Below, in pieces: positions 6,834 to 57,936 of a stretch of DNA of 64,000 nucleotides; position 1 is the first letter of the stretch, and every line of letters starts with the position of its first letter. The stretch comes from Siphonodentalium dalli (taxonomy: Eukaryota; Mollusca; Scaphopoda; Gadilida; Siphonodentaliidae). The DNA lies in NCBI GenBank assembly GCA_032622095.1, contig CP136067.1:195014052-195078051 (forward strand). The letters run 5' to 3'. The translations under genes were made by a program, and so were the position numbers. The notes beneath the pieces were generated by a model. It searched no databases. It was not told where the DNA came from and saw only the letters and a program-made list of their open reading frames with translations.

Positions 6834-7086
6834 CAAGCCTTGAAATAGGGTGTCTGTCATTTGCAGAATGAGGTCCCCAGAGGGTGAATTTAGTGATGCT
6901 ACCCCGCATAGCGGGCTAGCATCACCAAATTCACCCTCTGGGGACCTCATTATGCTTACACCTCAGCAGAATGAGGTTCCCAGAGGGTGAATTTGGTATG
7001 CTAGCCCGCTATGTGGGGTAGCATCACTAAATTCACCCTCTGGGGACCTCATTCTGCAAATGACAGACACTCTCTTTCAAGGCTTG
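6834..7086. mobile_element. Double-palindrome element (AAGCCTTGAAATAG family)
   Basis: The ends are AAGCCTTGAAATAGGGTGTC and its inverse. Inside are two tandem palindromes built from GAGGTCCCCAGAGGGTGAAT with GATGCTACCCCGCATAGC at the hinge. About ten copies occur in the window. No ORF belongs to it. Confidence 0.75.
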
Positions 7087-12590: not shown

Positions 12591-12654
12591 ATTTGGCAAA
12601 TGCTAATATAATTTGGCAAAAAATATTTTCATTTGGCAAAAGTAAATTTCGGTC

Positions 12655-15600
12655 CAGCGCGGACCCTGACCAGGTGGCTGTAATGATAAGTCCCAGCGTG
12701 GACCCTGACCAGGTGGCTGTAATGATAAGTCACAGCACGGACCCTGACCAGGTGGCTGTAATGATAAGTCCCAGCGTGGACCCTGACCAGGTGGCTGTAA
12801 TGATAAGTCCCAGTATGAACCCTGACCAGGTGGCTGTAATGATAAGTCCCAGTATGAACCCTGACCAGGTTGCTGTAATGATAAGTCCCAGCACGGAGCC
12901 TGACCAGGTGGTTGTAATGATAAGTCCCAGTATGAACCCTGACCAGGTGGCTGTAATGATAAGTCCCAGCGTGGACCCTGACCAGGTGGCTGTAATGATA
13001 AGTCCCAGCACGGACCCTGACCAGGTGGCTGTAATGATAAGTCCCAGCACGGACCCTGACCAGGTGGCTGTAATGATAAGTCCCAGCACGGACCCTGACC
13101 AGGTGGCTGTAATGATAAGTCCCAGCGTGGACCCTGACCAGGTGGCTGTAATGATAAGTCCCAGCGTGGACCCTGACCAGGTGGTTGTAATGATAAGTCC
13201 CAGCACGGACCCTGACCAGGTGGCTGTAATGATAAGTCCCAGCGTGGACACTGACCAGGTGGCTGTAATGATAAGTCCCAGCGTGGACCCTGACCAGGTG
13301 GTTGTAATGATAAGTCCCAGCATGAACCCTGACCAGGTGGCTGTAATGATAAGTCCCAGCGTGGACCCTGACCAGGTGGCTGTAATGATAAGTCCCAGCA
13401 TGGAGCCTGACCAGGTGGCTGTAATGATAAGTCCCAGCGTAGACCCTGACCAGGTGGCTGTAATGATAAGTCCCAGCTCGGACCCTGACCAGGTGGCTGT
13501 AATGATAAGTCCCAGCGTGGACCCTGACCAGGTGGCTGTAATGATAAGTCCCAGCGTGGACCCTGACCAGGTGGCTGTAATGATAAGTCCCAGCGCGGAC
13601 CCTGACCAGGTGGCTGTAATGATAAGTCCCAGCGTGGACCCTGACCAGGTGGCTGTAATGATAAGTCCCAGCATGGACACTGACCAGGTGGATGTAATGA
13701 TAAGTCCCAGCGTGGACCCTGACCAGGTGGTTGTAATGATAAGTCCCAGCGCGGACCCTGACCAGGTGGCTGTAATGATAAGTCCCAGCATGGACCCTGA
13801 CCAGGTGGCTGTAATGATAAGTCCCAGCACGGACCCTGACCAGGTGGCTGTAATGATAAGTCCCAGCATGGACCCTGACCAGGTGGTTGTAATGATAAGT
13901 CCCAGCGCGGACCCTGACCAGGTGGCTGTAATGATAAGTCCCAGCACGGACCCTGACCAGGTGGCTGTAATGATAAGTCCCAGCATGGACCCTGACCAGG
14001 TGGTTGTAATGATAAGTCCCAGCGCGGACCCTGACCAGGTGGCTGTAATGATAAGTCCCAGCATGGACCCTGACCAGGTGGTTGTAATGATAAGTCCCAG
14101 TGTGAACCCTGACCAGGTGGCTGTAATGATAAGTCCCAGCATGGACCCTGACCAGGTGGTTGTAATGATAAGTCCCAGCACGGACCCTGACCAGGTGGCT
14201 GTAATGATAAGTCCCAGCACGGACCCTGACCAGGTGGTTGTAATGATAAGTCCCAGCATGAACCCTGACCAGGTGGCTGTAATGATAAGTCCCAGCTCGG
14301 ACCCTGACCAGGTGGCTGTAATGATAAGTCCCAGCTCGGACCCTGACCAGGTGGCTGTAATGATAAGTCCCAGCACGGACCCTGACCAGGTGGCTGTAAT
14401 GATAAGTCCCAGCATGGACCCTGACCAGGTGGTTGTAATGATAAGTCCCAGCGCGGACCCTGACCAGGTGGCTGTAATGATAAGTCCCAGCATGGACCCT
14501 GACCAGGTGGTTGTAATGATAAGTCCCAGTGTGAACCCTGACCAGGTGGCTGTAATGATAAGTCCCAGCATGGACCCTGACCAGGTGGTTGTAATGATAA
14601 GTCCCAGCACGGACCCTGACCAGGTGGCTGTAATGATAAGTCCCAGCACGGACCCTGACCAGGTGGCTGTAATGATAAGTCCCAGCATGGACCCTGACCA
14701 GGTGGCTGTAATGATAAGTCCCAGTGCGGACCCTGACCAGGTGGCTGTATTGATAAGTCCCAGCGTGGACCCTGACCAGGTGGTTGTAATGATAAGTCCC
14801 AGCGCGGACCCTGACCAGGTGGTTGTAATGATAAGTCCCAGCACGGACCCTGACCAGGTGGCTGTAATGATAAGTCCCAGTGCGGACCCTGACCAGGTGG
14901 CTGTAATGATAAGTCCCAGCATGGACCCTGACCAGGTGGTTGTAATGATAAGTCCCAGCACGGACCCTGACCAGGTGGCTGTAATGATAAGTCCCAGCGT
15001 GGACCCTGACCAGGTGGCTGTAATGATAAGTCCCAGCGCGGACCCTGACCAGGTGGCTGTAATGATAAGTCCCAGCGTGGACCCTGACCAGGTGGCTGTA
15101 ATGATAAGTCCCAGTGCGGACCCTGACCAGGTGGCTGTAATGATAAGTCCCAGCGTGGACCCTGACCAGGTGGTTGTAATGATAAGTCCCAGCGCGGACC
15201 CTGACCAGGTGGCTGTAATGATAAGTCCCAGCGCGGAGCCTGACCAGGTGGCTGTAATGATAAGTCCCAGCGCGGAGCCTGACCAGGTGGCTGTAATGAT
15301 AAGTCCCAGCGCGGACCCTGACCAGGTGGCTGTAATGATAAGTCCCAGTGTGAACCCTGACCAGGTGGCTGTAATGATAAGTCCCAGCGTGGACCCTGAC
15401 CAGGTTGCTGTAATGATAAGTCCCAGCATGGACCCTGACCAGGTGGCTGTAATGATAAGTCCCAGCGTGGACCCTGACCAGGTGGTTGTAATGATAAGTC
15501 CCAGCATGGACACTGACAAGGTGGCTGTAATGATAAGTCCCAGCACGGACCCTGACCAGGTTGCTGAAATGATAAGTCCCAGCGTGGACCCTGGCCAGGT

Positions 15601-15685
15601 GGCTGTAATGATAAGTCCCAGCACGGACCCTGACCAGGTTGCTGTAATGATAAGTCCCAGCACGGACCCTGACCAGGTGGCTGTA
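12655..15685. repeat. 39-bp minisatellite, 78 copies
   Basis: Unit GACCCTGACCAGGTGGCTGT plus AATGATAAGTCCCAGCGTG occurs 77 full times plus a partial copy, with no length change through the array. Because 39 is divisible by 3 and the unit lacks stops in several frames, one plus and three minus frames stay open for about 1,000 codons; the plus frame reads DPDQVAVMISPSV repeatedly. Differences between copies cluster at CGCG (also CGTG, CACG, CATG, TGCG, TGTG), as expected from CpG decay rather than protein selection. I annotate it as non-coding. Confidence 0.9.
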
Positions 15686-30637: not shown

Positions 30638-30777
30638 ATCGGAACAAAATGACAGAATTTTGGTTGATATCAGCTCCAGGCCAGAAGACATGCCAGGAAA
30701 CATGGGAGGCCCTGAATGGCGTCACATCATCACAGAATTTATCCCAAAATTTCAAATTTAACCTTCCAGATTTAAGG
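30638..30777 (+). CDS. ATP6V1C: ATP6V1C exon 1 (first coding)
   Basis: TTTACAG acceptor, an 11-base 5' UTR piece, then ATG at 30,649. 43 codons from [11 protein letters not shown] to NLPDLR; donor GTCAGT. The acceptor shows that at least one upstream non-coding exon exists. Confidence 0.92.
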
Positions 30778-33700
30778 GTCAGTTATTATCTTCGATTTCC
30801 ATAATTAGTACATGTACACGAAGTATATTTTTGTGAAAGTTTAAAGGTACTCAATCCGTAAAGAGGGTCCCCATCTCAACAGATTCCAACAATAACAATC
30901 CGATCAGAGGGTCCTATATTACTATTTCTTTGGCTTTGGGGGTACAAAATATTTGATTCGAGTCGAGGAACCCATCAAACAAAGCTCAGAGTTATTAGAT
31001 ATTGATTTTTGAAATTTGTTATGTTCTCGAGATGAGTACTAATAACTGCCGTAATCTGCTCTGGATGTGTACTCCAAATCTATTCAAACAGACAAGGATG
31101 GATAACTCTAAAATCAAGTGGTAATTTTAACGCAATTTTGACTGAGTTCTGGACCAGATAGTATTCCCGATAATGAAAAATAATAGATTTCTAAAATCGA
31201 TATCTAAAAAATCTGAGCTTTGATGGGTGACTTCCTCGACTCGAATCAAATATTTTTGACCCCCAAAGCCATTGAAATAGTAATTGAGAGGAGTTTTATC
31301 GGATTGAGTACCTTTAAGTTTCATAGATTTAGTACTGCGTATAATTCAAATGTGTAAATGTAAAAGTGATTAGGTTATATCAGGAAGAAAAATAATGGTG
31401 ATACAGTAATGCCCTAAATAATCGACTCCTTAACCACAGCAGAATTATGGATAACTTTTCAGGATTTAGTCGGAAATATGGCTTGTTGCCATTCATCGGA
31501 AAGCTCTCAGTGATTCTCCATAATTCTGCTGTGGTTAAGGAGTCGATCGTTTAGGCCATTACTGTATTTCCAATGACACACCGTCCCTACTAGCCTACTC
31601 CAGACCTCCTCCACCTTAACTATTTTTATCGACCCCCTAAAAAATTAAACTCAAACAAAATGATCAGCTAAATTATTCGATAAATAAAACCCGTTCTTAA
31701 GAGATTAGATTCATGTAGTTCATTGTTATATGGGTGTGTTTAGTAACTGTCCTGTACTTTGGATGATGAGCATTTGCACATACAGTGTAATAAAATCATA
31801 TTAGTAGATCAAACTTAGTGAATGTGAATGAGTTTAATGCGAAAAGCCACAAATTAATGTGGAACATACATAATAACATATATACACTATATACATTGGT
31901 ATGAATAACATTGTCATTAGAATTTCATGTTCATACATAATAATTTGTATGTAATACTTATATAAATATATCATACGTATACTGTATACATATATTTGCA
32001 CATGAGCATATATATATGTTTACAGAAATATGTGTATATAAATCCACATGCATATATATACATGTATGTACACAGAAATATGTGTATATAAATCCACATG
32101 CATATATATATGTATACAGAAATATGTGTATGTATACAGGTTCATGGATATATCAGTGTACTATCTTAGTTGTATTCTTTAAAAACATGTTTCAAATAAA
32201 TGCTAACGTTCTTCAATATTGATATATTTTCAATCGCAAGGAGGCCATATAACTTTTCTAGTGAAGGATTTAACCAGTAATAGTCAGGAATGTATTTTCT
32301 CCTGAGTGTGACCAAATTATCGCAGATCAAGAGAATATAATACTCATCACATGTTTCCGAAACCGCACATTTTGCACAGTAAACTGTCGTGTTTTCGCCA
32401 TCTTGAAAGCTCGTTTGGCAGTCTATGGTTTGCTGTCCTAAATTTCACCAATGCTGGTATGAGATGTTGTGGTAGATAAATAAGGTAACGACTAATACTG
32501 GAATGACGCTTTATATTACTATATAAAGTTCCCCATGATGATTTAGATTCCTTCAGGTCACGAAAACATTTTAATTTACATGTACAATGTACAGTAATGC
32601 CCTAAGTAATCGACTCCTTGACCACAGCAGAATTATGGGTAACTTTTCAGGATTTAGTCGGAAATTTGGCTTGTTGCCATTCATTGGAAAGCTCTCGTTC
32701 GTGAGAGGGGAAAATGCGGTCAGTGTTTTCAATGTCGTGGAAACACTAGGGGACATACTTTTGTTGTATCGGCCAATAGAAGAATCAGAGAGTAGATTTG
32801 CTGATCGTTTTGCATCCATTTTCTACCCAAGTTACTATGCTATCAACCGCAATAAATTTAAAACCTAGAAAATTTATTAGATAAAAATTAATTGCCAGAT
32901 TATAGATCACCGGTCGTGAAGGCCTTGCGTTGTTCCCAGTATACGGAAATGCGCCCGTTGAAGTTAAATGACTCACTATTCAAGACTTGGCAGATAGTTC
33001 GGATACATAACGTGCCAGAATATAACACTCAGCAGATAGACGATTAGCAGGTTGGAAGCAATGAAGGAATAGAATAAAGGCGCAATGTGTTAGTTCTAAA
33101 TATCAAGCTAAATTATAATAAACATAGATAAAATGGAGTGATATATATATTTTACGACATGAAGATAGAATCAGTGGGTATGATTAAATTATCGGCGGTC
33201 ATTTTTTGTAACCAAACCGCAGCAACATAACCAGCGGACTCCAAAGCATGTGTTCTAGCGATGTTCTATCAGAATTATGGGTAACTTTTCAGGATTTAGT
33301 CGGAAATATGGCTTGTTGCCATTCATCGGAAAGCTCTCAGTGAGAGCAAGAAACCATATTTCCTGAAAAGTTATCAATAATTCTGCTGTGGTTAAGGAGT
33401 CGATTATTTAGGGCATTACTGTATGAGTGAAGTACATTTATTACACAATCACTGTTGTATTCTTAGTTCAAGCTTTTATGTTGTAAAATCGACAGTTTAC
33501 TCGAGGGTGATCCTGGGTTTCTCCTGGAGATGCATGACATATTTACATTGCTAAAGGCAACATAAAGTGCACCCCTCAAAATTAGGAAAAATGTCCCACT
33601 GCAAATTTAATGCTGTGGCATTATAGATTCCACATGTTGCCACAGCATTTCCCACGGCATTGCTTATTGCCATGGTCAATTTCAAGGACTGCAAAGTGAA

Positions 33701-36700
33701 TTAAATAAGTGACAACAAAATCATTGCAAAGCAACACATTTCAATTAGAAAAGCTCAGTATAATATCACTTTTATTTGTGTTTGGGATATGTTACATATA
33801 TAGAGCCACACTCGTGTTTTTTTTGGTTAAAGATTACCTCACAGAACCCTAAACAACACAGTGTTGCTCTATACATGTATGTACTGGTATATATTCCTAT
33901 TTTGACCCCTTGATCAAAATTAAATCATAAATAAGTCTTAAAACTGCCAAAAGGCTTACAATAAGTTACCATGATTATGATTAGTTTTTATTTATTTTTT
34001 TCTCATAGGTTGGTACTTTGGACCAGTTGGTTGGTTTGTCCGATGACCTGGGTAAGCTGGATGTTTACTGTGAAGGGTAGGTACCTCATCGAGTTGGGAG
34101 TTTTATCCTTCTGTTTACTGTGAAGGGTAGACTGTACCCCATAGAGTTGTGAGTTTTGTCTTCTTGTATTGTCATAATTTAGCATGATATTACATGTATA
34201 TTAATGGGTACCTTACCTGAACATAGAAATATGAAAGATATGTTCTTTCAAAATCATTACAGTACTACTCACAACAAGTGTCTCCTTTTTCACTGGCCGT
34301 AATAAATTAATAATGCATTGATTATCTGGTATTTGCCATTGTGTTGAAGATAGCATACTAGTTTGTCTTCTTAACAAGTTTGATTTAGTATCCAGAAGCG
34401 CTTCTATCAATTAATATTGATTTTATTTGACTTATTCTGGTATAATACATACAACCCTTCGGGAAAGTTTTAGTGGCTATTTTTAGAACATAAATTTACA
34501 GAAATGCTCAGATCACAGCAAGAGGGAGAACTCTATCTTGTTTGCACTCTCCATCAAGGGGGAGAACTCTATCTTGTTTGCACTCTCCATCAAGGGGGAG
34601 AACTCTATCTTGTTTGCACTCTCCATCAACGCAAAATGTTATTTCCATTAAGAAATTTAGCTTTTTGACATCAGGAATAATTTAAACCTTGTGCCTTTAT
34701 TGACGAATCATGTACCCAACTTCAGTTTTGTCTGCTTTATTCACAGAAAATTTTATTTTTCGTCTTAAACTTGGGTTTTACAAAAGATTATGTTGTTGTT
34801 GTAACACAGTCCCAGTTTTAATGCACCGGTACATTAATGTGATGATATTTTGATTATTAATGACAAATTACACATCAGATGGTATCAAGTTATACATGTC
34901 ATATATAATTATAGATTTCATGTAAACAGTTTTATAGTAAAAAGCCTACAAATTTATATTATTTAGAAACAACAAGAATATATTTGGTAACCAACAAATA
35001 TAAGTTTTAATTTCAAGTGACATGTGGAGGGAGATAGGGGAGGAGCCATAGAACACAAAATGGGTTTTTGTCTTACTGCAAAATATGCAATTGCGTGTTT
35101 AAACTCGCGGAAACAAATGGATCCTTTAAAACCAGACAGAACATTTCAGAGAAATTCAGAATTCCTCGCTTAGGCCAGGCATCATCTACTTCAATTAGGC
35201 CCGTTTTATACGTCGCGCCAAACACGGGTCGCGCTATCTTCCCCTGGCTCGACATTGGCCCGTCTCTGGCTCGTGTTACGTTTGTTTGATTTATACGTCG
35301 AGCCAGCTGGCACGTGCTGTAATTGTATATTTCGAACAATTTTAGCATTTCTGATACAAAATTCCGTCTGCTATAATCATTTCCGCGATAGTGTCCTCTG
35401 ACAATGCACTATAAACTGGCCGGCTATACAGTGCATGAATCTCATAATTTATGCTTTCGTTGGTTTCAAAATCGGGATCTTGTCATTCATTTCCCTCAAA
35501 TATATATCTCTGCAATATATTTATTCCCAACTTTCGCGAAACGTCCTTTGCCAGTCGATACATGCATGTCCCCGTAGTAGACAATTGCCTTCAATGTATA
35601 TTTACAACGGCCAAGAGTTAGCGCTGTGCTGTCTGTGGCCCGACGCTGTTTTATACGACATGCCAGACACAGGTCGCGCTAGGATGACTTAAGAGATAAC
35701 GTAATGACGCCAAAAACTTCAAATTGCACATGCTCTCTGCCAAATGGGGAACGGTTTTCCCTGAATCATGTTAGCGCGACCCGTGTTTAGCACGTCGTAT
35801 AAAACAGCGTCGAGCCCCAGACGTGTAGCACGTCGGTACCAGACGTGTAGCACGTCGGGTGACGTGTAGCACGTCGGGTCGTGCCAGAGAAATTCTGACG
35901 CGCCAGTTGGTTTTATACGTCGTGCTCCAGTTGCGCTATCTTGGACTTTGTCATTTTCACACTAATTAGGCTGGCGCGACCCGTGTCTGGCTCGACGTAT
36001 AAAATGGGCCTTAGTGTGACCATTCACATACACATCTCGAATACCGCATTTGTTCGTTCTAAAATCCAATCCAGAATTAGACCAAAGCCAATGCCTATGC
36101 AAACACAAAGAAAAGACATGGATTTTACACTACAAATCATCCAACCATGGGGCCTGAACAGGAAGAACATTTTCTTATATTTTAATTGCGTTTTTTATCT
36201 TACTCTTGATCTTTCCTTATTCAGCGTTACAAAGAAAATTGCCCTGTACTTGGGCGAAGTTTTAGAAGATCAAAAAGATAAACTTCAGGAAAATCTATTA
36301 GCCAATCAAGGTAAGCTAACTGTAGATCATGAATCACTACTCTGGCTAGTCCTGTACAGATCATATTCCGCCCATTCAAAAAATCTGCGAACATTTTGAT
36401 GTTCTGACTGGGAACTTTATAACATTGAATGAACAATGTAGGGAATATATATCTTAATTAATAATTTAATACCTGTTTCGTAACAATGTATTGCACTGTA
36501 GGAGATGATGACTTGTGTGTGTATCAATTGCGCAATAAGCATTGAATTCATTATCTTTGGAAATTCCATGATTGTAAGCTGCACAGCAAATTTTATTCAC
36601 AAAATTTGCCTAAATCATGCAATCTCAAGTTAGGATCTTCACTTACTGTGAAACAAATTATTAACCCTTTCAGTGCCAAGTCCGATTTTTGTATCAACCC

Positions 36701-39700
36701 ATATACCCTGTGCCAATGCATTCTCTTATATATGCGAGTCGACCATAGGTCGCCTCGCATATATAAGAGAATGCATTGGCCTAACAATTTTTCATCATTT
36801 GTTATTATTTTTTACAATTTTTTACAATTTTAATAATTTTTTCTTATATTCTTTAACAGACTTATTTTGTAGGTTTAGTGCCAGGGAATCTTACGTTTTT
36901 CATGGGCATCAAAATTATTACTATGAATACTTTTGAGTTATAACATGGCCCTAAGGTTTTATCTAGTTTGTTTTTAAATTCGCTATAGCATACTTAAAGG
37001 GGTACTGTACGCCATTTTCAATAAATTTCCGGTGATAACAACGATCTATTATCGATAATATATAGAAACATAAGTAATTTGAGTCGAAGATGTATTCTGT
37101 AAACGCTCAGGTTAATAGGCTATCTTAAAATTTAATAATTTAAAAGTTAATAATTTAATATAAATTGAATTTATGGCTGGAGCCATAAAATGGCGTAAAT
37201 TAAAATACGAATTTCCTTGTACAAGACGTAATCAAATTATAATTGAGGGATACTGGATTAGTAAACCCATTGCACACACGATCGTTTGAAACAATATGCT
37301 TGAGAAAACTCAAGCCACTCACTGACTAGTGACGATACAATAACATAAATCAGTTCATGGGACAAAAATTACTCGACAACAACAATTTGTATTTTTGCAT
37401 TCCGGTAAATTTGCCATCCGTAACACTACTTCGTACTCAACAGACTTTCAAATAATGGAAAAATTGTTACCTTATTCTCCGACTCAGAGACTATAGAAAC
37501 CAACAACAACATTTGGGTACAGTATCCCTTTAAGCATACCCAAAAAAAATTCAAGAGTTAAGGGCACATGTATTAACTAAAAAAAATATATTACCTGAAT
37601 TGTCTTTTGAATGTTATAAATTTCCCCGTCACGACATCAAAAAGTTGCCAGTTTTTGAGCCAGTGGAGTATAATCTCTTCTTACATAACCAGAGTAGAGA
37701 TTCATGGCATGAACTAGGTTATAAACTGTTACACGAATGTTGAGTTAGGCCGAGTGAAATTCCAACTGAAGAGTAAATATGTACCTTTTATTATACGTTC
37801 ACCAATGAATTATAGAAAAAATTGCTGTTAGATAAAATATTTTTATCACCCACAAGGGGTTATAGAAATTTTCACTTTCCTACTAGCTCGTGCATGAGCG
37901 ACTGATCCACTTACGTGTACCAATACAATGCAGGATTATTTCAAAACCCTCGTGAATTGGTAGACTTGACGTTACCTTTATTATTATATAAACTTGTTTT
38001 GTGTTGAGGAAATCAGTGGATTAATATGGGAACTACGGCCAATGAAGAAAGACTGAATAAGTGGCCAGGGATCAGTTGTCCACTTTGGTGCTTCTATTGA
38101 AGGTTATTATGAGAACATTTATTGTCGTAAATGGTGAATTTCTATGTAACGCATATAATAATAAGAAAATCTAGTGTTTTTGAGTGAACACCAAAAATTA
38201 TCTCATTCCGGAAAGAGACAAATACTTATTTTTTAACTGTTTTTGTAGTTGATTTGAATCTTCATGCATACTAAACCAGTACATTATTTGTTTATCTCAT
38301 TGTTTTTTTTAGTTGAGTTGAAAACCTATTTAACAAGATTCCAGTGGGATTTAGCCAAGTATCCAATTAAACAGAGTTTACGAAACCTGTCTGAGATAAT
38401 CAGCAAGGTGAGTCGTCATAATTAAAGGACTATAGTAAGGGTTCGTGCAGCCGCTTTTCCCAAATTTCGACACAAAAAATAATTCATTCTTGGCACAAAT
38501 TATTTTCATCTGACAAAAGATTTGGCAAGTGAGTTCAATGAAGTAGAAACTATTTATTAAGTGGTCAAACCATTCATGTCTGTCACAAAAGCCCGATGTT
38601 ACAGTTTTGTTATTGCGGCATTGAGAAAGTTCACGCCACTATGAACTAGTAGTTAGTTTGATTACATATGAGACAGGTAGCGATATTATGCATGATTATG
38701 ATGTTTACACGACTCATTACATATGAGACAGGTAGGGATATTATGCATGATTATGATGTTTACACGACTCATTCTCTTTCTTTATAGAGGTGCCCTCAGG
38801 TAATTTTTTATATGCCCCCCCCTTAACAAGTTAAGTTGGGGTATGTATGTAGGAATCAGCTTGCCGTCGGTCTATCTGTCCATTCATCTGTCCATAGATC
38901 TTGATCTGCTATTTCTTTTAAACTTGGTACAGATATTTAGTACCATGGGAACCTGTGCACCTGCAATTATGAGGTCCATGCGACAGTTTTTGTGGAGTTA
39001 ACCCCCTTTTTGAAACACTCAAATCAATATGTCAGTCTGTCTGTGTGTGCATATGATTTACTTTTCCAGAGTATAACTTGAGTGCATAAAACATTTCCGA
39101 CACTGGCTCATGGGGGATCCTTAGTCCCATTGGGACAGCCCACCTCTAGTTTATTTGTTTTATTACGGATTCTGTTTCCCCAAAAAATCACTGGAGTAGA
39201 AAACAAATAAAATTTGTAATCAGCACTTAATATTATTTCCTCTGAGTTTTGCTAACTAGTTTTATTCAGGTCTCATTCTACACATTTATCTAAGATCTCT
39301 ATGTTTATCGTTGTTGATCTTGCATTTGATCTGTTATTGGATTATGCTTTTTACACAGTAAGATCTTTTTTGTCTCTTCCATTTCGCAGCAAGTTTCCCA
39401 GATAGAAGCTGATCTCAGAACAAAAGCTTCTGCTTTTAATAGTCTGAAGGGAAACTTACAGACTCTCGAAAGGAAGGCAACGTAAGTTAAGTTTAATAAT
39501 CTGAAGGGCAACTTACAGACTCTCGAAAGGAAGGCAACGTTAGTTTCGTGGTTTTAGACTTACTTTTAATAATCTGAAGGGCAACTTACAGACTCTCGAA
39601 AGGAAGGCAACGTTAGTTTCGTGGTTTTAGACTTACTTTTAATAATCTGAAGGGCAACTTACAGACTCTCGAAAGGAAGGCAACGTAAGTTACATGGTTT

Positions 39701-42700
39701 TAGACTTACTTCACAAAGTCAAGAAAGAGATGTCATGATACAGCATCCATTTGTCAGCGTGTGAACACTGATACAGTGAAACCTCTCCAATGCGGGCCCT
39801 CTACAATCCGAATCCCTCTCCATTCCGAACGAATTGTTCTGTCCCGAATTTACCCAAGTGCATTGTCACTAATGATTACCTCTGTAATCTTATACCTCTG
39901 TACTCCGAATACCAGACAGCTTTATTAGTCCATAAGTGAACAAATAGACTAATGTTTACCTCCAAAATCCGAACACTGAAAGTGATGGAAGAGACCGAAC
40001 GCAATCAGTTAAATGGTAATGATGTGAACGTTTCCGTTTTTGAGTTGACCTATGTGTGACCCCGATCAGCATCACAGTTAGTTACAAACGGATGAAGCGT
40101 TCCTGGTAAATTAATCAAATTTAATTACAAATTAAAATGAATATAATGCCTGATAATAAAAAGATATGGCTGTATTTATATTTAATCTTATTCTAAATAA
40201 ATTCCGAAAGGGATACCAGGCAAATGCGCGTGCACACAGGTAATGTACTTTCGTTCTATTGAATAAGCATACCAATTTAATTAGCGGTCTTTTTTCTCGG
40301 CGAAGCTTTGAAACCGTGTCTAATTGGATACGCCTAAACGAAAAAAAATTACTGCACCACCTTCAGATACACATAGATATATGTTTGCTTATTTCACAAA
40401 TTGATTCTACAATGGTGACATCACAGATAATTAGAGCAGCGACACGTTGTTTTTACATAAGTTATTGCGCTGGAAGGGACTCTTTGTTTGTACAACAATT
40501 GTCCAAACTAAACACTAATTAGCTAAAAGTACATGATGGTGGTTTATTGTCACCATCACAGTTTTAATCAACTTATCACAATTAATGAGCCGTCGGGAAA
40601 ACGACAGCTCAGAGTTGAAATCTACCAACAACAACATTTTCCAAAACCGCGAATCACCGTAAAATGTATTGTTTCCAGGTTTCCAGGTTTATCTGTACAT
40701 ATATTTATGTCTTATTATAACATTTTTATCTATTGCAATTTATTTTTTGTTGTATTTTGTAGTTTATTGAATAAAGTTTAATTAATCACTACGGCGGTGT
40801 TCGGGTCTCGATAACTCTTACCGACAGCGGCAATATATTCTGATGGTTTTGCGATTTTCTGTAAACCGAACACCTCTCTAAACCGAACAGAAGGCCGGTC
40901 CAAAGGGTGTTCGGTTTGTAGAGGTTTTACTGTACACTGTATTCCTAATGTAATTATCATGATGTCATTAATTTACTGAAAGTTGATACAAAGACATGTG
41001 TTGGCCAAATACTGAAAAAATGCTTTGGCCATTTGTTTGCCATTTGCGAAAACCTTGTTCATACAGAAAATATAGGAACTTGCAGCAAAACTTGTGCGAA
41101 AAACTGTTTTTTTTAAATAAAAGAAAGAAAAATGAATAATTGCGTTAAATTCTCAATATCTACAATAAAATTATCTTATAAAAACAGGAATTGGGGAAAT
41201 TTTGGAGAATGTTTAACAGTGAGAGTCAGTCCTAAATACCGTATAATTATATTGTATAGTAAAAATAAGTATTGCACCAGTTCAAATGGGGACTTTTGAT
41301 GACAAGACATCAAGTAATAAATAATTAGTAAGAAACAACATACCAGTAGAAATAGCAGTTTTATCTTTCATAATTTTTATAAACAATAAATTTTTATAAA
41401 CGCAGAAATAGCAGTTATCTTTCATAATTTTTATAAACAATAAATTTTTATAAACGCAAGTTGCAACGTTAGCAGGAAGTGTTGTTGTTTCTACTCTATT
41501 GTTATGGTAACATGCACCTATGAGCAACTGTTGATTCAGGTTTGCAGTTAGTATGGCTCAGCATCTGTAGAACAGCCTCAATCCCCTTGCAATCTATCTT
41601 AAAATATCTGGCTGCAACGAGAGTGGGTGGTTAAACATAACACTGGTCAAAAAGCACATCGATTCAGCATTATGTTACCTGTACAGCATAACCCTTTGAA
41701 ATAAAAGCACCAAAACTACAACGTAATGTTTGGTGTGCCGCCCCGTCACATTATGTGCCTTATACAGCCTCATTTATTTTACCCTGGTGGAAACCGTGGC
41801 TGATTACAGTAAAGTTTCAAAAAGATTTGTTGGTAGTCTATTAATTGTGAGTCCTTTCCCTGTGCTATTTTAGATTTTTATTTGATTTCTTGGACATTCC
41901 ATTACACATTTGAAATGGGAATCATTGGCTAGCCTTGAAACATTCTGTTTAGTTCTTTTTGAAAAAAAATGCATGATATTTAAAAAAAATATAATATGTG
42001 TGCTATAAATAAGAACTTGAAACCTATGTGTGTCCATTTGTAAGCTTTCTAATTCCAGAAATTATTGAATATTTGATGTTACATTTACACTGTGCGATTT
42101 GTCTAACATTCTAATACATCTTCATTCCAGTGGGAGTTTGTTGTGCGATTTGTCTAACATTCTAACATATCTTCATTCCAGTGGGAGTTTGTTGTGCGAT
42201 TTGTCTAACATTCTAACATATCTTCATTCCAGTGGGAGTTTGTTGTGCGATTTGTCTAACATTCTAATATATCTTCATTCCAGTTGGAGTTTGTTGTGCG
42301 ATTTGTCTAACATTCTAATATATCTTCATTCCAGTGGGAGTTTGTTGTGCGATTTGTCTAACATTCTAACATATCTTCATTCCAGTGGGAGTTTGTTGTG
42401 CGATTTGTCTAACATTCTAATATATCTTCATTCCAGTGGGAGTTTGTTGTGCGATTTGTCTAACATTCTAATATATCTTCATTCCAGTGGGAGTTTGTTG
42501 TGCGATTTGTCTAACATTCTAATATATCTTCATTCCAGTGGGGAGTTTGTTGTGCGATTTGTCTAACATTCTAACATATCTTCATTCCAGTGGGAGTTTG
42601 TTGTGCGATTGGTCTAACATTCTAATATATCTTCATTCCAGTGGGAGTTTGTTGTGCGATTTGTCTAACATTCTAATATATCTTCATTCCAGTGGGAGTT

Positions 42701-45700
42701 TGTTGTGCGATTTGTCTAACATTCTAACATATCTTCATTCCAGTGGGAGTTTGTTGTGCGATTTGTCTAACATTCTAATATATCTTCATTCCAGTGGGAG
42801 TTTGTTGTGCGATTTGTCTAACATTCTAACATATCTTCATTCCAGTGGGAGTTTGTTGTGTGATTTGTCTAACATTCTAATATATCTTCATTCCAGTGGG
42901 AGTTTGTTGTGCGATTTGTCTAACATTTTAATATATCTTCATTCCAGTGGGAGTTTGTTGTGCGATTTGTCTAACATTCTAATACATCTTCATTCCAGTG
43001 GGAGTTTGTTGTGCGATTTGTCTAACATTCTAACATATCTTCATTCCAGTGGGAGTTTGTTGTGCGATTTGTCTAACATTCTAACATATCTTCATTCCAG
43101 TGGGAGTTTGTTGTGCGATTTGTCTAACATTCTAATATATCTTCATTCCAGTGGGAGTTTGTTGTGCGATTTGTCTAACATTCTAACATATCTTCATTCC
43201 AGTGGGAGTTTGTTGTGCGATTTGTCTAACATTCTAATATATCTTCATTCCAGTGGGAGTTTGTTGTGCGATTTGTCTAACATTCTAATATATCTTCATT
43301 CCAGTGGGAGCTTGTTGTGCGATTTGTCTAACATTCCAATATATCTTCATTCCAGTGGGAGTTTGTTGACTCGGAACCTGGGTGACATCGTGTCAAAAGA
43401 AGACTTCGTTTTGCACTCTGAGTATCTTGTCACAGTATTAGTGGTTATTCCAAAGTAAGTCATTATTTGTAAACAAAGCATTAACCCTTTAATAACGGGA
43501 GCTACGCTGGTGCAGCATTAAAGATCTTGTGTCAGTGCATTCTCTTATATATGTGAGTATTCGCATATATAAGAGAATGCACTGGCTTACCAGGTCGAGG
43601 TAAATATTGTTAGGCCAATGTATTCTCTTATATATGCAAGGCTTTCTATGGGAGACTCGCCTATATAAGTGAATGCATTGGCACAGGGTTTTCGCAAAAT
43701 TTCAGGAAGCTCCAGTCATGGAAGGGTTAAATAGCTTTAATTATTCTGTTGCAAGCAGTCAAAAATATGTTTTCGAGTATCACATCCCATTCGTTTTAAC
43801 TGTAATTATGTCATCATCATCACGGTATACTTTAAAGTATGTGTGACGTCACAAGTACATACTCCTGTCTGTTACCTATACACAACCCGAGCTCAGTGCT
43901 GTGCACTGAGTTGGGTCATTATAATTTAGAGTTTATTTATTTCTCACATTCTTTTTTGTAAATACAAAATGTAAGTGACACTGTGTCTCCTTAATGGAGG
44001 TAGTAAACTAATAATAGTTTGATAAGAGAAGTTGTTCATAACGATTGGTTGATATAGGCTTAACCCTTTACCCAACAAACTGGCCAAAAACGCCCAAATA
44101 AAGCTTCAACAGCCTAAAATATCTTGGGTCTGTCTCAATAACACCATACAAATATGGATATCATTGGAACCGGTTCATTGACCACATTGTGATGGTTACA
44201 GTTATGCCCTGTGCCAATGCATTCTCTTATATATGCGAGTCGACCATAGGTCACCTCGCATATATAAGAGAATGCATTGGCCTAAAAAAAAAAAAATTTA
44301 ACACTTTTTACCATTTTTTCTTACATTCTTTAACAATTTTATAATTTTTTAACATTTTTTATAATATTTTTCTACATTTTTTGACAATTTTATCATTTTT
44401 AATATGTGTTAAGCCAATGCATTCTCTTATATATGCGGGGCGACCTATGGTCGACTCGCATATATAAGAGAATGCATTGGCACAGGGCCGTTCCGTTGGG
44501 TAAAGGCTTAATGTTTAGATATATTCGTATGTTTACAGAGCAGCCGTACATGACTGGAACCTCAGATATGAGAAGCTTACTGATATGATTGTGCCAAGGT
44601 CAAGCAAGTTAGTATAGGACTTTATTTCTTCTAAATTTGTCTGAATCATTATAATCATTCAATTCAATTCTACCTCAGTAACCTGTCATTAGCAAGCCTG
44701 CAAATAGTGTGTCTGTCATTTGCAGAATGAGGTCCCCAAAGGGTGAATTTAGTGATGCTATCCCGCACAGTGGGTTAGCATCACAAATTCACGCTCTGGG
44801 GATCTCATTCTGCTTAGGCCTCATCTTCTGGGAAGTATCTCTACTATATAGTCTCAAATTAACATTGTTTTAGTTACTTTTTCCCTTCTGTTTAGTTTCT
44901 ATATCCCCTAATTTGCAGAAGAAAAAATGCAAATCGAGGTGACTAATGGGTGAACATCACCAACTTCAACTGGGGAACTTCAATTTGATTCTAGGTCTCC
45001 CATAGCAGTTGAGGCTAAAGCAGAATGAGGTTCCCAGAGGGTGAATATGGTGATGCTAACCCACTCTGCGGGATAGCGTCATTAATTCACCCTCTGGGTT
45101 CTCACTCTGTCATTAGCAGGTTTCCAAATCATTCTAAGTTCTTTTTTAGCTTAGAGTTCACTTAAGATTACTTAATAGAAAGAGTTATTAAAATCACATA
45201 AATTAGAAAAGTCGGGTCCCAATTTTTTCTTCAGCATTCAAAAATAGAGTGTTTTTGTATTTCTGATATGGCATAATGAATGTCTCATTTCTGTTTGAAA
45301 AATTTAAAACAGCTTGAAAATTGTTGTGACTTTTGCAAGTTTTTTTCAGATTACATAAAGCATGTAGATAGATATCTTATGTATTAAACCATTCCATGAT
45401 TGGAGCTTCCTGAAATTTTGCGAAAACCCTGTGCCAATGCATTCTCCTATATATACGAGTCCTCATATGGAACCTCACTTATATAAGAGAATTCATTGGC
45501 CTAACAATATTTACCTTGACCTTGTAAGCCAGTGCATACTTTTATATATGCGAGGCTCCCTATGGGAGACTCAGATAGATAAGAGAATGCACTGGCACAG
45601 AATCTTTAATGCCAGCACAGCTCCCACCATGAAAAGGTTACCACTTATCTTATCCCTCCTACTTCCAAATGACGTATACATAAGTTGGAGGTTGAAATGA

Positions 45701-48700
45701 TCTTTGTCTGTGTAAATTTTTATTTTATTTATCTTGTCTACGCAATGAATGTTAGTTAAGGAATGAAATGTTATGGGGAGGATATTTTGAGCAAGTTGGA
45801 GAGATCATTGGAAAAAAATTTACAATTCTTATTTATGGCCTTACAATGTCAAGTCTTTCTATGCTTTTCAGGATACTGTATGAAGATGGAGAGAATTGTT
45901 TGGTGACTGCCACATTGTTTAGACGAGTCGTCGATGAATTTAAACACCACTGTAGAGAAAACAAGTAAGTGTTGACGATATTTCAGGAACATTTGGCCAA
46001 ATTGGCCCCCTGACTTTTATCGACCGAATGAAAAGACCAATGACTACACGTATCATGACAGCATTGGACAAGAATATAGTAGCAGGTTGGACAGTAGTTG
46101 ATTACAAGCCTTGAAATAGCGCGTCTGTCATTTGCAGAATGAGGTCCCCAGAGGGTGAATTTAGTGATGCTACCCCGCATAGTGGGCTAGCATCACCAAA
46201 TTCACCCTCTGGGAACCTCATTCTGCTGAGGTGTAAGCAGAATGAGGTCCCCAGAGGGTGAATTTGGTGATGCTAGCCCACTATGCGGGGTAGCATCACT
46301 AAATTCACCCTCTGGGGACCTCATTCTGCAAATGACAGACGCGCTATTTCAAGGCTTGGTTGATTATAAAATAGTTCATTAAAAAGTGGCATGTTCAATG
46401 ATGTTCTCCAGTTATGACAGAAATATATATGTTCACTAGTTGAGCCAATAGCTGGCATAAACCTTTTTATACTAAATGGATTCTCCCAACCAATCATAAA
46501 GTATACATTGGAATGGTTTATTATTTATCTGAAGGGTTTTTAGAAAAAATAAGCAGACAACAGATAATAGTACAGAAGGAGTCCTATTTATTGGAGAATT
46601 TTCAATATTTGAGGTTTCTGGGTGATAACTTTAGTTTTATTTATTTTATCGGAACAAAATTTGGTATGTTCGTTTTCCAGACCAAAATACAGGTCAAGTT
46701 CGATTATGGGTTAGGTCCAAATATTTTTTTCTCACTTATGACTCTTTTCAAATTAGAATTTTCTATATTTGAGGTTTCCGGATGATAACTTTAGTTTGGG
46801 TCATTTTATCGGAACCAAATTTGGTATTCGAGTTTTCCAGACCAAAATACTGGTCATGTTTGAGGGTTCGGCCCAAATATTTTTACTGACTCGATGGCTC
46901 TTTTCGACCAATGCTACCATTTAGTGTCACTGCCATTGTTTGTTTGTGTACAGTTCATAAAAGCACACCAGGCGTATTTTGCCACGCCCAGCACAGCTCT
47001 TGTTTTAGAAGGGATTATGTTTTGACGTAACAAGGTATGTTAATCAGCAGGAACATTACGTATGGGCCAAAAATTCTGCATCAGCTAAAAATGCTTAGAA
47101 ATTGCATGGTGACACACTCTACATATATAAACTTGATTTAACATTGGCCCATTTTCTTGGCATACTATGTGGATTAAAATCAACAATTTTCATTGTAGTT
47201 CTCCTTCTCTAATCCTTGTAACTGTTAGGCATTCAATATATAGAGGATCTACAATGAGGCCCCAGTTTATAACAGAATTTACAAAACAAGTCCAGTAAAT
47301 TAGGTCTGGACCGAGCCTTTGAGGACGTCCAGTAAATTAGGTCTGGACCGAGCCTTTGAGGACGTCCAGTAAATTAGGTCTGGACCGAGCCTTTGAGGAC
47401 GTCCAGTAAATTAGGTCTGGACCGAGCCTTTGAGGACGTCCAGTAAATTAGGTCTGGACCGAGCCTTTGAGGACGTCCAGTAAATTAGGTCTGGACCGAG
47501 CCTTTGAGGACGTCCAGTAAATTAGGTCTGGACCGAGCCTTTGAGGACGTCCAGTAAATTAGGTCTGGACCGAGCCTTTGAGGACGTCCAGTAAATTAGG
47601 TCTGGACCGAGCCTTTGAGGACGTCCAGTAAATTAGGTCTGGACCGAGCCTTTGAGGACGTCCAGTAAATTAGGTCTGGACCGAGCCTTTGAGGACGTCC
47701 AGTAAATTAGGTCTGGACCGAGCCTTTGAGGACGTCCAGTAAATTAGGTCTGGACCGAGCCTTTGAGGACGTCCAGTAAATTAGGTCTGGACCGAGCCTT
47801 TGAGGACGTCCAGTAAATTAGGTCTGGACCGAGCCTTTGAGGACGTCCAGTAAATTAGGTCTGGACCGAGCCTTTGAGGACGTCCAGTAAATTAGGTCTG
47901 GACCGAGCCTTTGAGGACGTCCAGTAAATTAGGTCTGGACCGAGCCTTTGAGGACGTCCAGTAAATTAGGTCTGGACCGAGCCTTTGAGGACGTCCAGTA
48001 AATTAGGTCTGGACCGAGCCTTTGAGGACGTCCAGTAAATTAGGTCTGGACCGAGCCTTTGAGGACGTCCAGTAAATTAGGTCTGGACCGAGCCTTTGAG
48101 GACGTCCAGTAAATTAGGTCTGGACCGAGCCTTTGAGGACGTCCAGACCTAATTTACTGCTTATAATTTACAAGTTGTAGATTCCATTTATTACATGATC
48201 CAAAACCTCGACAAAACATACAACAAATAGGACGCTAAAGTAACATCGGCTTCTATAAGGCATGTGATGACGTTTCACTTAACTATGTGTTGTTTGTCCG
48301 CGTAAAGAAATAGTCCCAGATAAATATGACTCTTTGGCATATTTAATAGCCTATATTTAATGACATAACTTTTCAAACTCTTCATTCATTATAGTTTGTT
48401 GGAAAAATATTGGAAGCCATAGTATTTACAGAATGTAACAGATGACAAACCGGAAGTCAGGCACTATTTCCTGTTATTAAACGAATGTTTAATATTACAA
48501 TTTATAGAATGGGTTTATTGAATGGATTAAGGGTAGGATCATGTAATAAAGTTAAAATCCATATATCTTTCTCAAGACTTTCCATGACACAAATCTATTA
48601 CAATGATCACAACAATTTGGTTCAGTTTTGCACATACAGTAAAACCTCTCCAAACTGGACCCTATATAATCTGGATCCCTCTCTAAAACGAACAAATTTG

Positions 48701-51700
48701 TCGGTCCCGGATTAAGCCAAGTGCACTGTCACTAATAATTACCTCTGTAATCTGGAACCTCTGTATTCTGAACACCGGACACCATTTTAGTCCGAAATAA
48801 CCATACACATGATATTTTACTGCCAGCATCCAAACGCAGGTTCCAATCAGTGACACATGTTTTCATACAGTTGTCTTTCGTACCGATCTTATCAGTGAAA
48901 TTTTGTTGAGTGAATGCACTGAACTTGATAGCAATAGCAGGTGGGTGATTAGATATCCCAGTGTTTTTTCACACATTGAGTGATTAACTGAGACTTCATT
49001 GGAGATTTACTTGTTGGCAGTTAGTTTTGATACCAGTTTAGCTGCTAAGTTGAACTATCATGTGTTCACAAACACTGTACAAAACAAACACTTTAGTTTT
49101 CCATAAATACATGTTACATTTGGCAATCATTAAAATAGATTTTTATTCCCTCTTACTTCATTTCATTTGGGTTTCAAATTGTCTATTTTCGAGGTAGTTC
49201 GCGATGTCAATGGTCCTTACTTTAGCACCATTCTGATAGAGTTACATGGACAATTGTTAGTAGTTTATTAATAATTTTAGGTGGACAATTTATTATTCAA
49301 CGAACAGACTACATTAAATGATAATAGTATTTGAAATTTTCAGCTTGGAATTGAATTAATCAGGTTGATTTATATCCAAATTTTAGCTTGCAAGTTTTTG
49401 TGATCCAAATTTAGTTTATCGGCGGGCTCATAGTTCACTTGGTGTCGTCTGAAGTTTCATCTATTAAACATGCTGTGTTATCTAATATATATTTTGGGAC
49501 TTCTGTCTGTCTGTCTGTCTGTGTGTGTGTTAGCTATGGCCGGGAAAACTGCAAGACGGAAAAACTGCCAGACGGATTTTGACGAAATTTGATACCTAGG
49601 GGTAATTTTGTCCAGCGAGTGTTTTGGACGGGTCAAATCGTGACCCCGACCTGACCTTGACCTTCAAAATGGTCAATTCAACGTCAAATTTGGTAAAATG
49701 GACGGATTTCGATGAAATTTGATACCTATGGGTACTTTTGTCTGGGGAGTGTTTTGGACGGGTCAAATCGTGACTCCGACCTGATCTTGACCTTCAAAAT
49801 GGTCAATTCAAGGTCAAAGCCCGGACGAAGTCGGGTCACCTGCTAGTATAATATATATGTCTTTATAATGGGGACATTCTGATCCGATCATAATTTCTAT
49901 AAACCAAACAATTCACTATACTGGACAAAATGGTCGGCAAACTTGAAAGATGTATCTGCTTTTCAGAATTGATTTAGTTTTTACGATAATATAAACTGAG
50001 ATTGTTATGTTTATTGTTATTTTCAGATTCAATGTCCGTGATTTTACATACAGCGAAGAAGAAATCAATGCTGGAAAGAATCAAATAATAAAATTGGAGG
50101 CAGATAAAAAGAAACAGTTTGTTAGTATCAACACAATTACTCAGCTATCTACTGATAAGTCAATATTGTTAAATGACATAATATGAAACACCATTTTACC
50201 TGCAAAATATCTCTAAAATCTTCCGTTTTCCCGTACTTGGGATGATTGGGACAAAATTTTGCTTAAATTGTAAAAGTCAGTAGTGGGAACAGTCCAAGGA
50301 GAAATACACTAATGCCCTAAATAATCGACTCCTTAACCACAGAAGAATTATGGGTAACTTTTCAGGATTTAGTCGGAAATATGGCTTGTTGCCATTCATC
50401 GGAAAGCTCTGACTAAATCCTGAAAAGTTACCCATAATTCTTCTGTGGTTAAGGAGTCGATTATTTAGGGCATTAACTGTAGGTAGAAAATATATAGAAA
50501 ATAATTGAGAATCATCTTCTGTTCTAGATGACACTTTGTAAGGAGCATTAGTTGTGCCATGGCATTCTAAATTGTGCAGGACACTTATTATGCTTAACAC
50601 ATTCACTGCTGACTACAAGTTATCTCATACTTTTTACGTATAATTAAATGGGCATCAGCAGTGAATGTGTTAAATTATTTGAAGTCACAACATAATGATC
50701 ATATTTTAATAGTGAAGCATGTATAAATGTGTATATTTTTAATCATTTATGATAATTGAACTCACTATGTTAATTGTCTTTTTCACATTTAGTCACATAA
50801 TCTGTCTTCCTCCATTTTCCTGCCACCTCATCAAGTTTCTAGCACTCAATGTAGAGTTCTCTGTCTTTGAATATGCAGTTTGTAGATAAAGATACTTCAT
50901 AGATATGATTTATCCCATCAATTTACTTTTATAATGCATATCCTTTGTCTCATGTTTTCTCTTAAACTCTTCTATGATGTGCGAAGTATGAAGTATATAA
51001 CAATTCGTTCAGTGTCCAAGATACTTATTAGGAGATACATATTTCGGGAAAGAAATTATTATATTTTAATGCTGAAGCATGTATAAATGTGTAAATTTTT
51101 AATCATTTACTTTGATATTGCATATCCTGTCTGGGACTTACAAAAATTTATTTCTCTTAATTTCAGGGTCCCCTAGTCAAATGGTTGAAAGTAAATTTCA
51201 GTGAGAGCTTCACCGCCTGGATCCATGTCAAAGCATTGAGAGTATTTGTTGAATCAGTTCTACGGTAGGTTTTAATTCTTCCTTCACGCCTGGATCCATG
51301 TCAAAGCATTGAGAGTATTTGTTGAATCAGTTCTATGGTAGGTTTTAATTCTTTCTTGGGTGAGTGGGGATAAAAACATGCATAGTAGTTTAATCATTTT
51401 ATTTAACCAAAATCTTGTACAGTAAATCCTCTCTAAACCGAACACCCTTCGGACCGGCCCTTCTGTTCGGTTTAGAGAGGTGTTCGGTTTACAGAAAATC
51501 GCAAAACCATCGGAATATATTGCCGCCGTCGCCGAACACCTCATTACTGATTACTTAAACTTTATTCAATAAACTACAAAATAAAACATAAATTGCAATA
51601 GATAAACATGCTATAATAAGAAATAAATATATGTATAGAGAAACCAGGAAACATGGAAACGATACATTTTACAGTGATTCGCGGTTTTTGAAAATGTTGT

Positions 51701-54700
51701 TGAGCTATCGTTTTCCCCGACGGCTCATTAATTGTGATAAGTTGATTTAATAAAACTGTGATGGTAACAATAAACCACTGTCCTGTACTTTTAGCGAATT
51801 AGTGTTTAGTTTGGACAATTGTTGTAAAAACAAAGAGTCCATTCCAGCACAATAGCTGATGTAAAAACAACGTGTCACTGCTATAATTACCTGTGAAGTC
51901 ACCACTGTTCAATCAGTTTGTGATATAAGCGAACATGTATCTATTTGCATCTGCATGTGGTGCAATGCAGTAACCAATTATGGTTTAGGCGCATCTAATT
52001 AAACACCTGTTGTTTAATCCGTTTCAAAGCTTTACCGATACAAAAGACCGCTAATTAAATTGGTACGCTTATTCAATAGTACGAAAGTACATTACCTGTG
52101 TGCACGCGCATTCGTCTGGTATCGCTTTCAGAATTTATTTAGAATAAGATTAAATATAAATACGGCAGTATCTTTTTATTCTCAGGCATTATATTCGTTT
52201 TAATTTGTAAATAAATTTGATTAATGTACCAAGAACACTTCGTCCGTTTGTAACTAACTGTTGTCACTGACGGTGATCGAGGTCACACACAAGTCAACTC
52301 AAAAGCGGAAACGTTCACATCATTACCTTTTAACTGACTGCGTTCGGTCTCTTCCGTCGCTTTAAGCGTTCGGATTTTTGAGGTAAACATTAGTGTATTT
52401 GTTCACTTATGGACTAATAAAGCTGTCTGGTATTCGGAGTACAGAGGTTTCGGATTACAGAGGTAATCATTAGTGACAACGCACTTGGGTAAATTCGGGA
52501 CCGAACAATTCGTTCGGAATGGAGAGGGGTTCGAATTGTAGAGGGTCTGGTTTGGAGAGGTTTCACTGTACAATGTTTCGCGGTATGATGACGGAATGTA
52601 TCAATGGTGTTATTTATCAACATGTTGTTCAATGAAATGTGGCCGTATTATCATTTGAGTATCACAAAATTTGGCCATATTACCACTTAATTTTAGAGTT
52701 TTCCATCTTCATCCGCAATTTTGTCTGAGACTGTCGATTTGACGACTCTTTTCTTGATCACAAATAATTACAAATTTCGAGAAATAAAAAATTTCAAAAA
52801 ATTGATATCTGATCACTCTGAGCTTTGATGGGTGGGTTCCTTGACTCGAATCAAATATTTTTTACCTCGAAGCCAAAGAAATATTACTTTGGGGGCGTTA
52901 TTTCTGATTATGTATCTGTAAGTTTCTGATGAAGCAACATCTTGCAGGGAAGCAGAATCATGATTAGCCCTTTCTATACTAAAGACGCATTGATGAGTAG
53001 TTATCCAGTAGGAAATGTTCAGATAATAAAGTCAACTAGGTCATTTGTTGAACTTATTATCTGAACATTTCCCTAAATAAATAGAGCTCCTTCTGCACAT
53101 TATGATCTGTTGTCTGCTTATATCACCTGTACCATTCTGATGTACACTTTTTTAACTTGGTGGGGGAATCCATTTAGAAAAGAAGGGGTTAGAATGTCTA
53201 TTCTACGATATTTTATTGTATAATTTATCCATTGTTTGTACCTCCTCTATAACTTTATATCATGTTGACTCTTGCAAAGATGAATGGGTTGGTGCTCTGA
53301 TTTTGTTCTGTAGAAAGTTTTTCTCATATTTACTTTTTCACCTATCAGGTATGATCTACCAGTGAACTTATTAACTTTTTCACCTATCAGGTATGGTCTA
53401 CCAGTGAACTTCCAGGCCATGCTTGTACAGCCAGCGAAGCGAGCATCGCGGAGACTGAGGGAGGTACTAAACCAGCACTACTTTAGTCTCGATAACACGG
53501 CGCTAATGGGATCTGAAGTAAGTATACTCAAAGGTTCCACGTTCAATAACACGGCGCTAATGGGATCTGAAGTAAGTATACTCAAAGGTTCCGCATTCAA
53601 TAACACGGCGCTAACGGGATCTGAAGTAAGTATACTCAAAGGTTCCGCGTTCAATAACACGGCGCTAATGGAATCTGAAGTAAGTATACTCAAAGGTTTC
53701 GCATTCAATAACACGGCGCTAATGGGATCTGAAGTAAGTATACTCAAAGGTTCCGCATTCAATAACACGGCGCTAATGTGATCTGCTGTAAGTATACTCA
53801 AAGTTCCTTGTTCAATACTTTCCAAGATAAAAACACAAGAAAAAATATTTTACAGTAACATAATCATTAGTTAGTTTTCCGCAGTCATTGAGGGGTTCCC
53901 AGTCACACTCACTAGTAATTATGTTGGAAAATACCTGAAAAGAAGACAATACAAAGCAGAAGTGACAAGAGAAAATTGGAGTACCCAGAAATTTAAAATT
54001 GCAGATGCGAGTTCATTTACATTCATCTGCTTCTATACTGTTCATGTCATAGTCTATATGCCAAGGTTGTTTGACATTTTCGGTTGAGACTATATGATTT
54101 TGGTGTGTATCAATGCACTGTCATGGGAAGACTCTGCACTATTTATGTTAACAATTCACAATGCATCATTACCGGTATGCATGTCTTTTCGTCTGCTGTG
54201 GTTTGCAGATGTGCATTTTTAATAATCTTGAAAATATATTATTATTTTCATAAAATTGATATCCCAATTGATGTCACACCAAATTATTTCAGGGTTTCCG
54301 CTAAAACGGACCCAGTTTTGGTGCCGAAAAAAAACTTAGATAAAAAAATGAGAAATGGATGGTGTATGGATCAATGAAATCAGAGTTGTTTTCCGTGGCT
54401 CCGGTTGTCTTTGATCTTCCAATCACCACCTGCAATGATGCCAAAAATAGACAACTTCAAAGGTTTATACCAATTTTGTGTATTCAATAATTGGTCTGTC
54501 GGCAAAACATCACACCTCAGAAAACAACTGACTTCCATAGGCGCTGGTACTGCTCAATGTAATTGTAACATCGACTGCTTCGATTTCGCTCAGAATAAAT
54601 TCAAAAACACCCCCCACACGCACACACACACACGCACATGCCTCTCCCCAAGTCCCACGATTCTGGTGCTAGCAATAATTAATTTTAATAGAACAGAACA

Positions 54701-57690: not shown

Positions 57691-57936
57691 AAGCCTTGAA
57701 ATAGGGTGTCTGTCATTTGCAGAATGAGGTCCCCAGAGGGTGAATTTAGTTATGCTACCCCGCATAGCGGGCTAGCATCACCAAATTCACCCTCTGGGAA
57801 TTTGCTGAGGTGTAAGCAGAATGAGGTCCCCAGAGGGTGAATTTGGTGATGCTAGCCCACTATGCGGGGTAGCATCACTAAATTCACCCTCTGGGGACCT
57901 CATTCTGCATATGACAGACACCCTATTTCAAGGCTT
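57691..57936. mobile_element. Double-palindrome AAGCCTTGAAATAG element
   Basis: Same layout as 46,105-46,357, with CTGAGGTGTAAGCAG at the centre and a small deletion in the left half. Confidence 0.78.

Follow-up and report, generated by a model that had tools for sequence, protein, structure and literature searches.

The window analyzed here, a stretch of 64,000 nucleotides, comes from contig 7 of an animal genome of 2.23 Gb represented by 9 contigs, and it contains the gene ATP6V1C on the forward strand at 30649..55799. The gene model, together with alignment of its product to V-ATPase subunit C1, gives 12 coding exons, with exons 1–4 at 30649-30777, 34009-34076, 36225-36310, and 38313-38407, exons 5–8 at 39390-39481, 43356-43454, 44539-44607, and 45872-45964, and exons 9–12 at 50027-50120, 51167-51264, 53391-53517, and 55707-55799. 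The introns are canonical GT-AG and ~1 to 4 kb long, and the model has 22 internal borders, the same number as in the initial annotation.

Tandem repeats span the ends of exons 2, 5, 10, and 11 and the starts of exons 6 and 11, and in all six the splice site is present in the copies, as the initial annotation had described. Five of these arrays are reported by TRF at a score of 50, all on the forward strand: 57/73 bp × ~4 at the exon 5 donor (39435..39711, with GGCAAC/gtaagt at the border), 51 bp × 25 at the exon 6 acceptor (42091..43368), 73 bp × 2 at the exon 10 donor (51208..51357), 42 bp × 2 at the exon 11 acceptor (53327..53411), and 54 bp × 5.9 at the exon 11 donor (53492..53807). The sixth, at the end of exon 2 and its donor (approximately 34068..34169, forward strand), is an old and diverged pair of ~50 bp units that is absent from the TRF output at this score and was recognized by eye; its two copies share an 18-bp exact core, GTTTACTGTGAAGGGTAG. 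The donor copies at exons 5, 10, and 11 are of the gtaagt type, and the acceptor copies at exons 6 and 11 have a pyrimidine-rich stretch with CAG.

The largest of the border arrays is that of exon 6, where each 51-bp unit contains a branch-point-like CTAAC and a pyrimidine tract, together with CAG and the first bases of the exon, and only the last copy is joined to the exon. Point changes at seven positions distinguish the 25 copies, copy 9 has a 1-bp insertion in addition, and these scattered differences argue against a simple assembly stutter. The array has no match elsewhere in the 2.23-Gb genome, which rules out the 51-bp unit as a dispersed satellite and supports a local origin; the view that the borders were duplicated separately, rather than by a single spreading satellite, is upheld.

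The window contains other repeats in addition to those at the borders. A 37-bp unit is present in 23 copies with 100% identity at 47290-48146, within an ATP6V1C intron and away from the borders. Outside the gene, a 39-bp minisatellite of ~78 copies at 12654-15685 has four frames open for ~1,000 codons; we considered it as a further border duplication and rejected it, as no flanking exon was recognized. A near-identical palindromic element of ~100 bp (GCAGAATGAGGTCCCC...GGGGACCTCATTCTGC), which looks like a small inverted-repeat transposon, is present in tandem pairs at 6863-7057, 46134-46329, and 57719-57895.

The coding sequence of ATP6V1C is intact provided that the body-proximal splice site, the first of the donor copies or the last of the acceptor copies, is used at every exon. 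The product is then 380 residues long, its residues 1–379 form a full-length alignment with subunit C1 of the human V-ATPase (E ~1e-164), and relative to subunit C1 there is no insert at the duplicated borders. The remaining splice-site copies would be intronic decoys, and the intact coding sequence indirectly supports regular splicing of the gene. Selection of the decoys would have different consequences at different borders: read-through to the later donors of exons 2, 5, and 10 meets a stop, whereas the upstream acceptor of exon 11 adds 14 codons in frame, and the 54-bp units at the exon 11 donor are in frame and open up to the last copy. At exon 6, the acceptors that lie 3′ of the 1-bp insertion preserve an open frame, and those upstream of it, among the ones listed, lead to a stop.

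Tandem duplications of exon-intron boundaries have been described in amphioxus, where they were named 'mirages', and the view that the phenomenon is undescribed is not supported (PMC3087553, PMC3902484). Their occurrence in cephalochordates reflects where they have been reported and is no part of their structural definition. The amphioxus examples are in Adh3, the globins BflGb6 and BflGb9, troponin C, and PGBD5, with units of 10–160 bp at both 5′ and 3′ borders and splice signals in many of the copies, and they show regular splicing and copy numbers that differ between haplotypes (PMC3087553, PMC3902484); for the globin and Adh3 mirages it is reported specifically that regular splicing is not disturbed (PMC3087553). 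The ATP6V1C repeats are likewise minisatellite-like duplications at 5′ and 3′ borders, with units that contain the exon-intron boundary and with AG or GT signals in the copies of both border types; they differ from the amphioxus mirages in that six borders are involved in one gene, with up to 25 copies. The copy numbers given here are those of a single haplotype. In human segmental duplications, too, exon-intron boundaries are reported to contain internal tandem repeats, occasionally with new splicing patterns (PMC2812944), and these are likewise minisatellites across exon borders, but they lie in recent paralogues with altered exon structure, whereas here a conserved gene retains its conserved full-length protein. 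The tandem genomic duplication (TGD) model of intron gain resembles the case of ATP6V1C in that new copies acquire their splice signals through a short tandem duplication (PMC4974935); in ATP6V1C, however, existing borders have been copied into existing introns, the repeats lying at existing intron edges, and no new intron appears to have formed within a former exon.

Published lancelet genomes are ~0.5 Gb with 19–20 chromosomes, and the 2.23-Gb genome here, in 9 contigs, is probably that of a mirage host outside the lancelets. Searches for a GFP-family member and for mollusc haemocyanin gave no match; these results are not decisive, and the missing GFP hit, although it agrees with a host other than a lancelet, is no proof that the family is absent. 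Our search of the accessible literature for reports outside amphioxus found only the human segmental-duplication cases, and it found no report of six mirages in one gene. The present analysis adds the density within a single gene, the 25-copy acceptor array, and a first estimate of prevalence, at ~4% of borders in a genome sample.

This estimate comes from exons recovered with their flanks from the same genome, from the conserved CCT, myosin, ATP-synthase alpha/beta, SNF2, adaptin, and kinesin families. After merging of close paralogues the sample had 123 exons, to which we added an SNF2 exon (L159) whose rank qualified it for the list but which had drawn attention through three tandem partial hits and was retrieved on its own for that reason, giving 124 exons and 248 borders. 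Mirages are present at 10 of these borders (4%), so that the initial annotation's picture of ATP6V1C as a special case is not supported. Eight were identified by TRF and border overlap (L025 and L029 in CCT genes, L041 in a myosin, L074 in an ATP-synthase alpha/beta-family gene, L101 in an SNF2 gene, L113 and L122 in adaptins, and L158 in a kinesin), and two were added by eye: a 31-bp donor duplication in a second kinesin (L139), missed by the automatic test, and the 127 bp × 4.1 array of L159. We have read nine of the ten in full, and their anatomy is the same; unit lengths in the arrays measured are 31–143 bp. With L139 placed at its donor, no array lies wholly within an exon among the exons sampled. 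Candidates for in-frame mirages were also considered where the exon searches gave long 'open frame' values, and mostly proved not to be mirages of this kind.

Paralogues provide information on the age of these structures. Among 23 fetched paralogues of one myosin exon, the mirage, at the end of the exon, is present in L041 and L043 only, which indicates a recent origin. Members of this series (L041–L063) lie mostly on contig 4, and one contig contains over a dozen closely related muscle-type myosin genes. The ATP-synthase alpha/beta-family pair L074 and L075 has a border mirage common to both genes, and of the CCT paralogues L007 and L008 only L007 has a 61-bp intronic array; arrays are thus datable on recent duplicates such as these two pairs.

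Assessment of whether borders are struck more often than chance depends on the exposure assigned to each border. We use the unit length, because an array contains the border only if its unit does; a null based on array length overstates chance overlap for high-copy arrays and was replaced. For ATP6V1C, with 13 arrays and 22 borders, ~0.8 overlaps are expected, and the five TRF-grade overlaps have P ~0.001, a value uncorrected for the choice of this gene as one that looked extreme. For the sample, the intronic baseline was taken from 44 loci with 1.5-kb flanks and arrays of period 25–160, and the 16 intronic arrays in 132 kb predict ~2.3 border overlaps per 248. The 10 observed correspond to a ratio of 4.4 (conditional P 0.0007), and the enrichment survives masking of repeats detectable by self-comparison (ratio 4.5, P 0.001); without the two additions by eye there are 8 in 246 borders against 1.9 expected. 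One of the intronic arrays, at 1736-2042 in L029, lies just past the mirage and repeats its unit, and since it was counted as intronic the enrichment is conservative if anything. The refuting condition named in the initial annotation, an overlap of repeats with borders no more frequent than with other intron positions, was thus tried on this sample and did not refute its view. The excess at borders is probably real, with a size that is uncertain, as it is derived from 10 arrays at borders and 16 in introns. Part of it may be due to slower decay of the exonic copy, as allowing for a 1.67-fold extension of detection on this basis changes the conditional P to 0.017. At 4% per border, and assuming equal border numbers (22 per gene) and independence, ~30 of 20,000 genes are expected to have five or more mirages, and ATP6V1C is thus an expected extreme from the tail of this distribution.

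We favor the explanation, and think it probable, that the ATP6V1C repeats are mirages in the sense of random local duplications that straddle an exon edge, are close to neutral, and expand as minisatellites do. Short tandem duplications would arise everywhere, and by chance some would straddle an exon-intron border. The exon would then remain complete and keep a splice site of its own, the surplus copies would fall in the intron as decoy sites, and the change should be nearly neutral. A duplication wholly inside an exon would usually be purged by selection, and one within an intron would decay, whereas a straddling duplication could persist with one of its copies held by selection. Exon definition, the mode expected with long introns, selects the body-proximal site, and the long introns of ATP6V1C suggest that it applies here, in which case splicing would choose the first of several donor copies and the last of several acceptor copies. 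The ~4-fold border excess is most likely a combination of slower decay of the exonic copy with a higher duplication rate or visibility of exon-type sequence, the more frequent duplication of such sequence being an assumption on our part.

A different reading, in line with the break process at splice sites proposed in the initial annotation, is that mutation linked to splicing or transcription (through R-loops, breaks, or template switching) makes duplications specifically at splice sites. Both the finding of borders in duplicated units 4.4 times more often than intron positions and the five or six duplicated borders within ATP6V1C agree with it, but the position of the border within the unit is not constant, being scattered from 6 to 119 exonic bp (mean exonic fraction of the unit 0.65; KS versus uniform, P 0.06). 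Arrays near exons are also no denser than those farther away, with 7 in 65 kb within 400 bp of exons and 10 in 97 kb deeper in the introns, and minisatellites of an ordinary kind, with comparable units, occur commonly within the introns of these loci. We therefore consider such a process unlikely, and the same judgment applies to the broader proposition that exon borders are preferred duplication sites by way of it, so that redundant splice sites would number in the thousands across the genome.

It could also be supposed that selection keeps the duplicates, because spare sites buffer splicing errors or permit variable protein inserts. The 51-, 54-, and 42-bp units preserve the frame and most of their copies are open, and multiples of three are mildly over-represented among mirage units (9 of 16, compared with 4 of 17 for intronic arrays; Fisher P 0.08). 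This weakly suggests occasional use of decoys, with purging of those that are out of frame, in which case the copies would not be fully neutral. Against this, the 73-bp and 57-bp donors run into stops, as do the listed exon 6 acceptors upstream of the insertion in copy 9, and any variable inserts would land in conserved parts of subunit C; the buffering suggested in the initial annotation is not required, as the genuine splice sites have been preserved, and we regard retention by selection as quite improbable. An assembly artefact arising from sequencing slippage or mis-joined reads could be invoked for those arrays in the window with 100% identity, such as the one in the ATP6V1C intron, but the scattered point variants among copies, the similar structures in many genes, and the two paralogue pairs that each share one make this highly improbable as an account of the border repeats.

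Interpretation of the repeats as near-neutral mirages probably extends the phenomenon past the amphioxus genes in which it was first described, and supplies a first rate for it. If ~4% of borders are duplicated in genes with normal proteins, they would constitute a natural experiment on how splicing chooses among identical sites, and duplicated borders, if they are so common, would be a source from which alternative exons and new introns could arise.
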